A stretch of 64,000 nt of DNA. Source: Neptunomonas sp. (lineage in GTDB: Bacteria; Pseudomonadota; Gammaproteobacteria; Pseudomonadales; Balneatricaceae). The stretch lies in NCBI RefSeq assembly GCF_016744175.1, contig NZ_JADGEV010000014.1, positions 11,806 to 75,805 on the forward strand, given 5' to 3'. The translations under genes and the position numbers were made by a program. Shown here piece by piece: positions 1,480 through 15,160 of the stretch. Below the pieces are notes generated by a model. The model was not told the origin of the DNA, did not search any database, and saw only the letters and a program-made list of their open reading frames with translations. Each line of letters opens with the position of its first letter. Within the stretch, counting starts at the first letter, position 1.

Positions 1480-1506
1480 CCCATTGATGATTAAGGATTA
1501 AAGACG

Positions 1507-3195
1507 ATGAGAGTCTCTTTTACAGAATGGACCAAATCCGGTTCACCATGGGTCTGGCTAAATGCAGGGGCTGTCGCCATCTGTGTGATTATGGTCGTAG
1601 GCCTGCTTTCCCTGATTGCTGTACGTGGCCTTGGGCACTTTTGGCCAGCAGACATCCAGCAAGCAACCTATTCTCTTAATGGCGAAAAAAGCCGTGTTAT
1701 CGGTGAGATTGTAGAGTCGGAACAAGTACCTGCTGAACAGCTACGTGATGCCGGTGTCATCGTTCCTGAAGGAACACTGATGATGCGCCGCGACCTAATG
1801 AAGATTGGTAACCGCGATGTTACCGGAACCGACTTTACCTGGGTCTTGGATGATAACTTATCTGATCGTAGTAACCCCGAAATGCTGTTCACCGCAGAGC
1901 GTCGTGAGTGGGGTAATTTTTATGGTTACCTGCGCGCGCTTAAGGAAGGCGACAAACTAGTTGGCCAGTATGATGGTTATGAAAAGACCCCTGAGTACGT
2001 GGCATTATGGGAAAGCGTTAAAGCCAGTATTGAACGTGCTCTGATCATACGTAAAGATATTTACCAGATTGAAAAACATGAAATTGGTTCCATCAACTAT
2101 GAGCTTGAGCGCCTGCGTTTAAAGCAACGTGCGCTTGAGTTAAAAGAGATTTCTGATCCGGCACCTTATGCAGAAATCGAAGCACGCAGGAAAGAGCTGA
2201 ATACTTCTTATGAAGGACTACAGCAAAGCTTGATTGACCTTTATACAGAGATCAACCGAGATACTATTATTGCCGAAGTATCTGATGGTCAACAGATTGA
2301 TATTGCTGTCGCTAAAATTGTTCGCGCATTTCGCCCGAATGATATGTCTGTCGGCGCTAAGCTAATTCACTATGCAGAAAAAATCAAAGAGTTCGTCTCA
2401 GATGATCCTCGTGAAGCCAACACAGAAGGCGGTATATTCCCTGCTATCTTTGGTACCGTGATGATGGTCGTTCTGATGTCAATACTGGTCACCCCGTTTG
2501 GTGTTATTGCAGCGGTTTATCTGCGTGAATATGCAAAGCAAGGCTTTACCACTCGTTTGATCCGCATCGCCGTTAACAACTTGGCGGGCGTTCCATCAAT
2601 CGTTTATGGTGTGTTTGGGCTAGGCTTCTTTGTTTACTTCTTAGGAGGAAACATCGACAGATTGTTTTACCCAGAAGCATTACCATCACCCACTTTTGGT
2701 ACAGGCGGTCTAATGTGGGCATCAATCACACTAGCACTATTGACGGTACCGGTTGTTATTGTTGCTACAGAAGAGGGATTATCACGAATCCCTCGTGCAG
2801 TACGTGAAGGTTCACTTGCACTAGGCGCTACCAAAGCAGAAACCTTGTGGAAAGTTGTCTTACCTATGGCCAGCCCAGCCATGATGACGGGCGTTATCTT
2901 GGCTATTGCACGTGCCGCAGGAGAGGTAGCTCCGCTGATGTTAGTCGGGGTAGTTAAATTGGCACCGAGCCTACCGCTTGATGCTAACTACCCGTTCTTG
3001 CATTTGGATCAGAAATTTATGCACTTGGGCTTCCATATCTATGATGTTGGTTTCCAAAGCCCAAATGTAGAAGCAGCACGCCCGTTGGTCTATGCAACAG
3101 CTCTGCTTCTGGTTGCGGTTATTGCACTACTGAATATTTCAGCAGTACAAATTCGTAACCACCTACGTGAAAAGTATAAATCGCTAGAAATGTAA
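1507..3195 (+). CDS. pstA: Phosphate ABC transporter permease PstA with long N-terminal soluble extension
   Basis: EAA loop (REGSLALGATKAETLWKVVLPMASPAMMTG); position between pstC and pstB. Confidence 0.94.
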   Translation: MRVSFTEWTKSGSPWVWLNAGAVAICVIMVVGLLSLIAVRGLGHFWPADIQQATYSLNGEKSRVIGEIVESEQVPAEQLRDAGVIVPEGTLMMRRDLMKIGNRDVTGTDFTWVLDDNLSDRSNPEMLFTAERREWGNFYGYLRALKEGDKLVGQYDGYEKTPEYVALWESVKASIERALIIRKDIYQIEKHEIGSINYELERLRLKQRALELKEISDPAPYAEIEARRKELNTSYEGLQQSLIDLYTEINRDTIIAEVSDGQQIDIAVAKIVRAFRPNDMSVGAKLIHYAEKIKEFVSDDPREANTEGGIFPAIFGTVMMVVLMSILVTPFGVIAAVYLREYAKQGFTTRLIRIAVNNLAGVPSIVYGVFGLGFFVYFLGGNIDRLFYPEALPSPTFGTGGLMWASITLALLTVPVVIVATEEGLSRIPRAVREGSLALGATKAETLWKVVLPMASPAMMTGVILAIARAAGEVAPLMLVGVVKLAPSLPLDANYPFLHLDQKFMHLGFHIYDVGFQSPNVEAARPLVYATALLLVAVIALLNISAVQIRNHLREKYKSLEM

Positions 3196-9473: not shown

Positions 9474-10787
9474 ATGCAAAATTCTCCACATGCATCCTTC
9501 GGCAATCTACTAATTATTGTAATCGTATCTGCAGTATTAGGACTCTTTTTTGGATACCTTAGTTGGGGACTGGTACTTGGCTTATCAGTCTGGTGTATTT
9601 TGCAAATACGCCAGACCGAAAAATTGAGGAATTGGCTACACCAGTCAGATACAGTACCTCCTGAGGCTCAAGGGCCATGGGGTGAAATCTTTGATGATTT
9701 AGCGCGTATTCAAAAACGCCAACAAGCCAAAACAAAGCAGCTAAAAGACATCATTATTCGCTTCCAGCAATCATCTTCTGCGCTTGCAGATGCATTTGTC
9801 ATTATTGATAGTCACAACAATCTTGAGTGGTGGAACCTTTCAGCGGACCGGCTATTAGGCCTTAAAGCATCAGCTGACCGCGGCAAACCTGTCATCAATT
9901 TATTGCGTGACCCTCGCTTTATTCGTTACTTTCGTAAAGGTAATTATGACGATCCGTTGCAACTACCAAGCCCCGTATTAAATGACACGGTCTTACAATA
10001 CCAAATTACTGAGTTCGGCTTCGGCGACCGGCTGTTGGTGGCACGAGATATTACTCAGCTCGTTCGACTTGAGCAGACTCGCCAAGATTTTGTAGCCAAT
10101 GCCTCCCATGAGTTACGAACACCGCTCACTGTTATTCGCGGTTATTTAGAAACCTTTCTCGACCAAGAACTACCAAAACCACTAACCAGAGCTATGAACC
10201 AAATGCAAACTCAAGCTAGCCGCATGGAAAGCTTAGTTTCTGATTTACTTTTCCTCTCTCGCTTAGAGGCGAGCCAACATATTCTTGATGAGAGTCCCGT
10301 CTACATAAAAGAAATGCTTTCTTCAATCCAACAAGATGCCTTAGTTTTGGCTCGCGCACAGGGTAAAGAGCACAACATCAGCCTTTCTATTGATTCAGAA
10401 TACGATTTACTAGGCCAAGCCCAAGAGCTCCACAGCGTGTTCTCAAACTTAATATTTAATGCGGTAAGATACTCACCATTGAAGGGAAAGATAGATATTA
10501 AGTGGACCGTAAATCAAGAAGGTGGGCACTTCTCAGTACAGGATAATGGCCTTGGTATTGAATCCATTCACTTATCACGTCTCACTGAAAGATTTTATCG
10601 CGTAGATGAGGGACGTTCCTCCTCAACCGGAGGCACAGGGCTCGGGTTAGCCATAGTAAAACATGCGTTGTATCGGCATGGCGCTCAACTGACCATTGAA
10701 AGTCAGTTTGGTAAAGGCAGCTTGTTCAGCTGCCATTTTCCTTTAGATATGCTGGAAAAAGTGAATAGCGCAAACGCGGCAACCTAA
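9474..10787 (+). CDS. phoR: Phosphate regulon sensor histidine kinase PhoR
   Basis: N-terminal TM, PAS, HisKA (FVANASHELRTPLTVIRGYLE), HATPase (GGTGLGLAIVKH). Confidence 0.96.
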   Translation: MQNSPHASFGNLLIIVIVSAVLGLFFGYLSWGLVLGLSVWCILQIRQTEKLRNWLHQSDTVPPEAQGPWGEIFDDLARIQKRQQAKTKQLKDIIIRFQQSSSALADAFVIIDSHNNLEWWNLSADRLLGLKASADRGKPVINLLRDPRFIRYFRKGNYDDPLQLPSPVLNDTVLQYQITEFGFGDRLLVARDITQLVRLEQTRQDFVANASHELRTPLTVIRGYLETFLDQELPKPLTRAMNQMQTQASRMESLVSDLLFLSRLEASQHILDESPVYIKEMLSSIQQDALVLARAQGKEHNISLSIDSEYDLLGQAQELHSVFSNLIFNAVRYSPLKGKIDIKWTVNQEGGHFSVQDNGLGIESIHLSRLTERFYRVDEGRSSSTGGTGLGLAIVKHALYRHGAQLTIESQFGKGSLFSCHFPLDMLEKVNSANAAT

Positions 10788-12905: not shown

Positions 12906-13562
12906 TTATCTTGCCAGTTGCGCATTAAATGAGCGAACAGTGTGAACTGCACCTTGAAGATATCGGCTTCTATCAGCTTTATCCTCAATTTCTGATGCAA
13001 GCACCTTTATAAGCTCCGCAATTTTAGATCGCTTCACCCCATGGGTCGTCTTCCATTGATCATAAGCATCATCAAACACTATCTCAGCAGCAGGGCCTAT
13101 ATATTCTGCTAACCCTTCCTGAAGTTTCCCCATTAACCCCATCAGTTCAACTTCCATTCTTCCTTGGTTTGCTCTGTTAGGAGCGGGCGCCTGTCCTCCT
13201 TGAGGAGCTACAGCTTCGGCACTTTGAGGAGCTAACTGCTTTTTAATTCGCCCTAAGGATGAGCGCACACTCGTGTTTATCAGTGCTAAATTGACTTCTT
13301 TTTCTGTCAACATAGCCAAAACCGTTTCATCGGTTATGTAATAACCAATTAATAAATTATCATCTAACTCAATAAATATTTCGCGATGAGTACAGCCCAT
13401 CCCCTCAACTGCCATAAACATCTGATAGAGTACACGGCAAGCACCTGTCATATTTTCTTCTAAAAGCTCCGGAAATGTCGAAGCCTTCATCTCATCGCTA
13501 TGCATTAAACAGCAATGATGTATTCCGCCCAAAAGCTCAAAACCTTTTAGTATCTTATCCAT
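12906..13562 (-). CDS. Hypothetical protein with Roadblock/LC7-like N-terminus and DUF8082-like C-terminus
   Basis: N-term resembles Roadblock fold; C-term LxxxLxEYIGPAAEIVFDDA resembles DUF8082; directly downstream of the GTPase-Roadblock gene. Confidence 0.5.
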   Translation of the reverse strand: MDKILKGFELLGGIHHCCLMHSDEMKASTFPELLEENMTGACRVLYQMFMAVEGMGCTHREIFIELDDNLLIGYYITDETVLAMLTEKEVNLALINTSVRSSLGRIKKQLAPQSAEAVAPQGGQAPAPNRANQGRMEVELMGLMGKLQEGLAEYIGPAAEIVFDDAYDQWKTTHGVKRSKIAELIKVLASEIEDKADRSRYLQGAVHTVRSFNAQLAR

Positions 13563-13568
13563 TCCTAT

Positions 13569-14558
13569 TTAGCTCCACTGCAATAAGTCATCAACTTGCT
13601 GTTTTAGCGTTCTGACAGATACCCGATTAGAAGACTGAACTCCTAAGGCTTTATCACCACCAACAAAAATAGAAAGATTATCTTCGGTGTTACTCTTTAC
13701 ACAGATGTTGTGAACAGAACCTAAACCAGAGGCTTCTTCAAATACCTTTACAACACCGGCAACAAAGCCAACAAAATCATTTACTTCTGGCGATTCTATA
13801 GATGAAGTAATTATCTCACCCATATCATCCGTCAATACAGCCCCGCGGACACCCTTCAGGTTCATTACATCATCAATGATTGCGTCTTTCATAACGACCT
13901 CTTCCCCAATGTACTCTTGAATAGCAAAATGGGCGTCATCCTGCTCCGGTACGACTTCTTCGAACACCATGTCCTTTTCATTGCTCAGCGCTTGGTTGGT
14001 CAAATCCGACCAACTGTCGAAGCTAACCAACTCCCCCACCAACTCTTTTACTAAAGGTAGAACACTGCTCGCCTTACGTGCATCAATAAAGCGAACTGCC
14101 GCATCGATACCTAATTCTTGAAGTGCCTTTTGATAATCAAGAACCGTAGGGTCATCGCGCAAATCTGATCGTGTCACCCCCAAAATAACTTTTTTACGGG
14201 CAATAAGTTCAGAAAATTCATGGGAGTAATATTTAAGATCACGCATTGGATAATTTCGCGTATTGTCGACGAGAAATACGATACCAGCGCAGTCAGCGGC
14301 TAAATTATTTGCAAGTAATTCCCACATAAACTTAAAGCGGGATTGTCCTGGAGTGCCGTAGAACTGCACACTCTCATTATCGTTCAGCGTAAGACAGCCA
14401 TAGTCCATCGCAACGGTTGTGGTCGCCTTGCGTAACCCTGTCATATCAGATGCTTTCGCTTCTGTTTCAAGATTATCGTGGTCATCACAAACGGCACGAA
14501 TAGCTGATGTTTTACCAGCCCCTACTGGACCGATAAAGAGTAACTTATGATAGTCCAT
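13569..14558 (-). CDS. Small Ras/MglA-like GTPase fused to a C-terminal Roadblock/LC7-like domain
   Basis: G1 GPVGAGKTS, switch TTVAMDYG, G3 YGTPGQSRFKFMW, G4 TRSD; C-term VMNLKGVRGAVLTDDMGEIITSS Roadblock-like. Confidence 0.8.
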   Translation of the reverse strand: MDYHKLLFIGPVGAGKTSAIRAVCDDHDNLETEAKASDMTGLRKATTTVAMDYGCLTLNDNESVQFYGTPGQSRFKFMWELLANNLAADCAGIVFLVDNTRNYPMRDLKYYSHEFSELIARKKVILGVTRSDLRDDPTVLDYQKALQELGIDAAVRFIDARKASSVLPLVKELVGELVSFDSWSDLTNQALSNEKDMVFEEVVPEQDDAHFAIQEYIGEEVVMKDAIIDDVMNLKGVRGAVLTDDMGEIITSSIESPEVNDFVGFVAGVVKVFEEASGLGSVHNICVKSNTEDNLSIFVGGDKALGVQSSNRVSVRTLKQQVDDLLQWS

Positions 14559-14731: not shown

Positions 14732-15160
14732 CTACTTTTGGCTACAGAAATATTGTTGCTGTTTCATTAGAAAACGACAACCTTCCCCTTTAATATTATT
14801 GTTCCAGCAGTAATATTTAGCCCATGCTTTATCATCTTCTGTAGGCTTTTCTCGATACTCAGGTACGCTATCACAAAAATCTGGCGTGGCCTCTGCTTGG
14901 CTCAAGCAAGCCTTCAAAAACACACCTTGATTTACCGTACAACTAAAGCCAAGACATCCGTCAAATTGTTGCAAGGCGGTATCTAAACACTGTTGCTGAT
15001 CTACTTCTTGCCCTAAAGAAGCACCTTTTTGTTTAAACTCTGTTGTTTTAACAACTCTTTCTTGATTGAAGCTCGCCAGCCAACTATCTCGATTAAGCCA
15101 GCCATACACCGCAGCGAAAACCAGTATCAATGACATAGCCAAAAGTGATTTTTTTAACAT
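14732..15160 (-). CDS. Cys-rich exported or membrane-anchored hypothetical protein
   Basis: N-terminal hydrophobic segment then 8 Cys residues. Confidence 0.55.
   Translation of the reverse strand: MLKKSLLAMSLILVFAAVYGWLNRDSWLASFNQERVVKTTEFKQKGASLGQEVDQQQCLDTALQQFDGCLGFSCTVNQGVFLKACLSQAEATPDFCDSVPEYREKPTEDDKAWAKYYCWNNNIKGEGCRFLMKQQQYFCSQK

Follow-up and report, generated by a model that had tools for sequence, protein, structure and literature searches.

A GTPase–Roadblock fusion with a co-inherited Roadblock partner in Neptunomonas: a possible Rag-like switch related to Group 3 MglA/MglB

The module lies in a window of 64,000 nucleotides (the whole stretch of DNA that was analysed) from the 4.2 Mb genome of a Neptunomonas sp. 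It contains two genes on the minus strand: the upstream gene 1 (13569..14558), encoding a GTPase–Roadblock fusion of 329 amino acids that resembles Group 3 MglA, and the downstream gene 2 (12906..13562), encoding a partner of 218 amino acids, with an intergenic gap of 6 bp (13563..13568). The two open reading frames and their spacing agree with an earlier description made from the letters of the DNA (the sequence-only reading), which also noted that no kinase or motility gene is adjacent, and this is correct for the immediate neighbours of the module. The nearest kinase gene, encoding a PhoR-like histidine kinase, is located at 9474..10787 on the opposite strand. The search for an own promoter of the module gave few sigma-70-like matches, fewer than expected from shuffling. 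Just upstream of the module, at 14732..15160, is the gene for a Cys-rich protein of 142 residues, which has one N-terminal membrane segment and no Pfam match. This membrane-anchored protein was ruled out as a component of the module, being widespread in the family with or without it.

The G domain of gene 1 comprises residues 1–175 (14034..14558), and the GTPase is the only confident Pfam assignment in this protein (ATP_bind_1, E=1.5e-10). Its motifs were correctly recognized in the sequence-only reading, namely GPVGAGKTS in G1, the switch TTTVAMDYG, GTPGQ in G3 and TRSD in G4; G2 is represented by TT and G5 by DAR. The motifs are invariant or nearly so in alignment A3, which contains 22 fused proteins and was the input for the AlphaFold2 model of gene 1. 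There, GTPGQ does not vary (two rows of alignment A1 have GAPGQ), and neither do Thr47 and Thr48, where threonine replaces the intrinsic Arg finger in G2. G4 has no lysine (TRSD, THSD or TGSD), while Asp159 and Arg161 of the G5 motif FIDAR are invariant. Threonine in place of the Arg finger is a criterion for Group 3 of the MglA proteins (PMC4316618), to which MglA of Neisseria and Snodgrassella has been assigned (PMC4316618, PMC11112851).

The remainder of the fusion was characterized from its predicted structure, with AlphaFold2 applied to single chains, one per protein. The model of gene 1 (mean pLDDT 80.8) contains the G domain, a linker and a second domain with Roadblock topology. The linker, residues 176–222 (13893..14033), begins with a helix (183–196), followed by a low-confidence segment (198–219) with pLDDT below 50. 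The cis Roadblock domain is formed by residues 223–329 (13572..13892), of which 227–328 adopt the order H-E-E-H-E-E-E-H with block pLDDT values of 77–92. In a Foldseek comparison with the PDB, the 16 best matches are all Rag/Gtr GTPases whose domains come in the same order, among them 8fw5_D (4.1e-12) and LokiRagO (8yl2, 3.6e-10), with alignments of about 350 columns each. The TM-score of about 0.4 and rmsd near 21 for these chains are consistent with both domains matching but being oriented differently to each other. Foldseek also identified the Roadblock 7yh1, and an independent profile search matched the Thorarchaeota Roadblock 7f8m to profile positions 211–302 (E=0.0014). Pfam scores of gene 1 were below the cut-offs both for Robl_LC7, run on the single sequence (13.4 bits against 23, E=0.065), and for Gtr1_RagA, PF04670 (15 bits against 22). 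The C-terminal Roadblock proposed in the sequence-only reading is thus borne out by topology, profile and fold comparison at a sub-threshold Pfam score, and the C-terminus, whose failure to fold as a Roadblock would have spoken against that reading, does take this fold in the prediction.

Judged by comparison with congeneric orthologues, both folded domains are under strong purifying selection, with pN of about 0.05–0.12 and pS of 0.6–0.8, whereas the linker is clearly more variable. The low pN relative to pS indicates that gene 1 is not a chance open reading frame. A frameshift or assembly artefact as the source of the fusion is ruled out by the 42 copies with open frames.

The partner encoded by gene 2 is made of a Roadblock domain, residues 1–112 (13227..13562), and a C-terminal three-helix domain, residues 130–218 (12909..13175). 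Its AlphaFold2 model (mean pLDDT 89.3) has Roadblock topology for residues 1–110, in the same H-E-E-H-E-E-E-H order as the cis Roadblock, followed by a disordered stretch and three helices. The best Foldseek matches are Roadblocks (3kye with 6.7e-7, and 7f8m) and then MglB and Ragulator subunits, in line with the Roadblock-like N-terminus suggested before; Pfam gave no match on the partner sequence, Robl_LC7 included. Homology between the cis and trans Roadblocks is detectable, although their profile match is modest (hhalign E-values of 1.5e-4 and 4.3e-5 with probabilities of 52% and 69%, correspondingly). Such homology is as expected for two halves of a dimer. The C-terminus had been called DUF8082-like. 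A Ser/Thr kinase encoded in a genome of the same family (G018) does end in two tandem copies of this helical domain, but the name finds no Pfam match: neither the partner C-terminus nor the similar kinase tail gave one with a Pfam set that may not include DUF8082. A Ser/Thr kinase with two tandem copies of this domain is found at 1498..2844 of locus L143.

The partner gene directly follows 36 of the 42 fused copies. In the related locus of a congener (G005) the flanking genes are kept on both sides and both module genes are absent together. The GTPase–Roadblock gene and the partner gene are therefore one unit, and the sequence-only reading, which would have been contradicted by a pair not conserved together in related genomes, holds on this point. 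From sequence and predicted fold, the unit combines an intact MglA-type G domain, a flexible linker and a Roadblock with a separate, co-inherited and homologous Roadblock that carries a helical tail. The six fused copies that have no partner gene form a single Amphritea-type clade (100/100), and they indicate that the cis Roadblock can exist without the partner. These GTPases (L046, L064, L065, L067, L068 and L069) are on a long branch and have a diverged C-terminus.

The Amphritea-type copies, which retain the fusion without the partner gene, and the variability of the linker, which fits a flexible tether, would suit a purely cis arrangement, where control of the G domain rests with the fused Roadblock alone and the partner serves not as a regulator but as a downstream effector. 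This is very unlikely, since Roadblock proteins normally work as dimers and the partner, which is a Roadblock too and is related to the cis domain, is co-retained in all copies that are not of the Amphritea type. The autoregulation in cis considered in the sequence-only reading is accordingly sound in that the GTPase is fused to a Roadblock, but purely cis regulation is less likely than regulation by a heterodimer of the cis and trans Roadblocks because of the partner gene found at 36 of the 42 copies.

The family analysed consists of 42 fused and 53 unfused G domains, collected by a genome scan and by searches of relatives after removal of two duplicate records. In the search for related loci the single-sequence query found nothing, while the alignment query retrieved the family. 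The maximum-likelihood tree places the 42 fused copies together with one more protein, L047, on one side of a branch with 97/91 support, and Neisseria, Snodgrassella, Methylococcaceae, Thiothrix and others on the other side; the tree was built without MglA Groups 1, 2, 4 and 5, and its root position is therefore not fixed. The G domain of gene 1 probably belongs beside the Group 3 MglA proteins of beta- and gammaproteobacteria. L047 (7768..8367, Pontibacterium-type genome G014) is a GTPase of 199 amino acids that groups with the fused clade and has no Roadblock domain, probably through secondary loss. L055, from a record labelled as an Aquificaceae MAG, has module sequences that nest among Thiotrichaceae, and its label is probably a binning error.

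The GTPase is present in 38 of 229 gammaproteobacterial genomes drawn evenly, and only the window genome has the full-length fusion in one uninterrupted match. The module is conserved across Oceanospirillaceae and Thiotrichaceae. The window genome carries a second fused copy, on contig C95, and Neptuniibacter has two tandem fused copies, each with its own partner gene.

Other arrangements of the same GTPase were observed. In L158 (G064:C161:1-5000) and L159 (G268:C36:109000-114000), from other gammaproteobacteria, the GTPase follows a Ser/Thr protein kinase domain, recognized by eye, in one open frame of 499 and 576 amino acids, correspondingly. In Oceanobacter mangrovi (L071, 3998..7434) an unfused GTPase is followed by a 442-amino-acid protein with ABC-ATPase and dual-specificity phosphatase parts, a 233-amino-acid protein and a pair of Roadblock genes. 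Locus L050 (6871..9115) has a split system that is very divergent and the second one in its genus; it encodes a 295-amino-acid protein, a 175-amino-acid GTPase and two small proteins, the first of which is Roadblock-like with an E-value of 0.00023, below the cut-off.

At 12 distinct copies a third gene follows on the same strand, always adjoining the partner gene. It encodes a receptor of 371–397 amino acids that combines a PF21623/dCache sensor domain with a HAMP domain near the C-terminus; the protein ends at HAMP, and no kinase or other output domain was found in it. Across 38 genomes, the closest receptor matches (E < 1e-130) are all at modules, the rest being sensor domains in other proteins. 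The ratio of long to short partners is 12/0 at receptor-bearing copies and 11/13 at receptor-less ones (Fisher p = 0.002, relatedness ignored), an association that is suggestive only, since the short partners are one clade.

No receptor gene adjoins the window copy, and the search of the window genome for a free-standing receptor gave as its only match a sensor domain that is part of a longer reading frame. The clade of the window copy (100/99) is sister to the receptor-bearing copies with moderate support (85/84), a position which suggests that the window lineage likely either lost the receptor or arose by duplication without it. The description of the switch as self-contained, given in the sequence-only reading, fits the window copy but does not extend to the family, where sister and deeper copies have an adjacent dCache-HAMP receptor.

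A framework for the function of the two genes is provided by Myxococcus, where MglA is controlled by MglB in the form of an asymmetric dimer (PMC11016934). A linked MglA-MglB1 coexpressed with MglB2 is functional in vitro, with MglB1 acting as GEF and MglB2 as GAP, and the linked protein was likened by its authors to Rag GTPases (PMC11016934). The two genes may likewise form a Rag-like bacterial switch of the MglA-MglB1-MglB2 type, derived from Group 3 MglA/MglB, a reading to which a probability of roughly one half is assigned. The cis and trans Roadblocks would heterodimerize, and the tethered G domain would sit on the heterodimer; the resulting complex, fixed in its asymmetry, would correspond to MglA-MglB1-MglB2. 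The cis Roadblock would take the place of MglB1, in nucleotide exchange and anchoring, and the partner that of MglB2, organizing switch I for hydrolysis. An Asp-Gly pair reported for the MglBs of Groups 2–5 is, in our own reading of the alignments, conserved in neither Roadblock, so that GAP or GEF activity may be lost or the chemistry may differ.

A closer analogy with the eukaryotic enzymes is less probable, though still to be taken seriously. Two GTPase–Roadblock chains would then dimerize through their cis Roadblocks, either as a homodimer or by pairing of the window copy and the other fused copy, that on contig C95, and the partner would be a docked scaffold resembling Ragulator. The best structural matches are Rag/Gtr proteins, whose cis Roadblocks pair, LokiRagO is a homotetramer according to the PDB, and more than one fused copy is present in the window genome and in Neptuniibacter. 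However, several genomes (G005, G011 and G021) have a single fused copy, and the presence of a separate partner gene for each tandem copy fits 1:1 pairing better than a shared scaffold.

Within the heterodimer reading, the helical tail of the partner would in the family couple the complex to the dCache-HAMP membrane receptor of the adjacent gene, and an extracytoplasmic ligand would set the nucleotide state with no phosphorylation step. Control of the module by the receptor, without phosphorylation, would be ancestral. In the window copy, which has no receptor gene, the input must come from the cytoplasm or from another protein. As a wider proposal, which is tentative and somewhat less probable than the heterodimer itself, the family represents a kinase-free receptor–G-protein system, where a dCache-HAMP receptor that lacks an output domain acts directly on the nucleotide state of a Rag-like fusion by way of a dedicated second Roadblock, and receptor-less paralogues, the window copy included, have been recruited to other inputs. 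If it is true, the Rag architecture has an origin in bacteria separate from that in archaea and eukaryotes.

As for the output, type IV pili are possible, though no result of the analysis points to them. Where MglA systems have been characterized, they govern type IV pili and polarity; in Snodgrassella, a Group 3 organism, an orphan mglB was reported to alter pilus-dependent motility (PMC11112851), and every searched genome has PilB-family matches, whether or not it carries the module. It is nevertheless unlikely that the fusion is without essential consequence and that the module works as a standard MglA/MglB polarity switch acting on type IV pili. The listed neighbourhoods of fused copies showed no pilus or motility gene, and the receiver-like/wHTH gene of Group 3 is not beside fused copies. 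The universal occurrence of PilB-family matches also means that co-occurrence gives no association with type IV pili.

GTPases with a Roadblock in cis are known from eukaryotic Rags and Asgard archaea (PMC10933270), whereas no report of a bacterial GTPase–Roadblock fusion was found in the open-access literature. According to a paper from 2024, only Rag GTPases have a Roadblock in cis; the same paper describes an artificial MglA-MglB fusion, built to study the asymmetry of the complex (PMC11016934). The module appears to be a natural bacterial counterpart of that fusion, with a separate and diverged second Roadblock, and it makes the question of which Roadblock serves exchange and which hydrolysis testable without engineering. 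Its relatives suggest that a Ras-like GTPase may respond to a membrane receptor with no kinase involved.

Among known systems, the actinobacterial conservons (AGPS, CvnA-D; PMC13343842) share with the receptor-bearing relatives a HAMP membrane sensor, a Roadblock and an MglA GTPase encoded together. Unlike in conservons, the receptor has no kinase module, no CvnC was recognized, and the GTPase is fused to one Roadblock; no histidine-kinase-like sensor of the CvnA type is found next to the window copy.

The Group 3 MglA/MglB systems of Neisseria, Snodgrassella and Xanthomonas (PMC4316618, PMC11112851) have in common with the module GTPGQ, threonine in G2, G4 without lysine, DAR, and one or more Roadblock genes beside the GTPase. 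An MglB-type Roadblock gene, looked for within four genes, is here the very next gene, a Roadblock by its predicted fold. Group 3 loci encode a separate GTPase of about 178 amino acids, then a protein of about 213 amino acids and a 120-amino-acid Roadblock, with a receiver-like/wHTH protein preceding the GTPase. MglA is characteristically a single-domain GTPase of 160–180 amino acids, whereas here the 329-amino-acid chain has a C-terminal Roadblock, the tail of the second Roadblock differs and there is no receiver-like gene, REC homologues having turned up at unfused loci only. Profile comparisons gave no sign that either Roadblock descends from the 120-amino-acid Roadblock or the 213-amino-acid protein of the unfused operon, the probabilities being about 1% or less.

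Rag/Gtr and the Asgard Rag-like GTPases (LokiRagO, 8yl2) likewise have a G domain and a C-terminal Roadblock in one chain, and because of them the fusion as such is not unprecedented. The sequence-only reading was right that GTPase and Roadblock are fused, but the arrangement has this precedent. The human Rag GTPases, which function in nutrient sensing, share the built-in regulator, a GTPase joined in one chain to a normally separate type of regulator. The module differs from Rag/Gtr in its MglA-type motifs and in the sub-cut-off PF04670 match. As its G domain is nearest to bacterial MglA, the bacterial fusion probably arose independently of the Rag and Asgard ones, making the module an apparently independent origin of the Rag layout. 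The engineered MglA-link-MglB1 with MglB2 from Myxococcus xanthus (PMC11016934) has the same order of GTPase, linker, Roadblock 1 and free Roadblock 2. While that complex is man-made and belongs to Group 1, the module is natural and its two Roadblocks have diverged.
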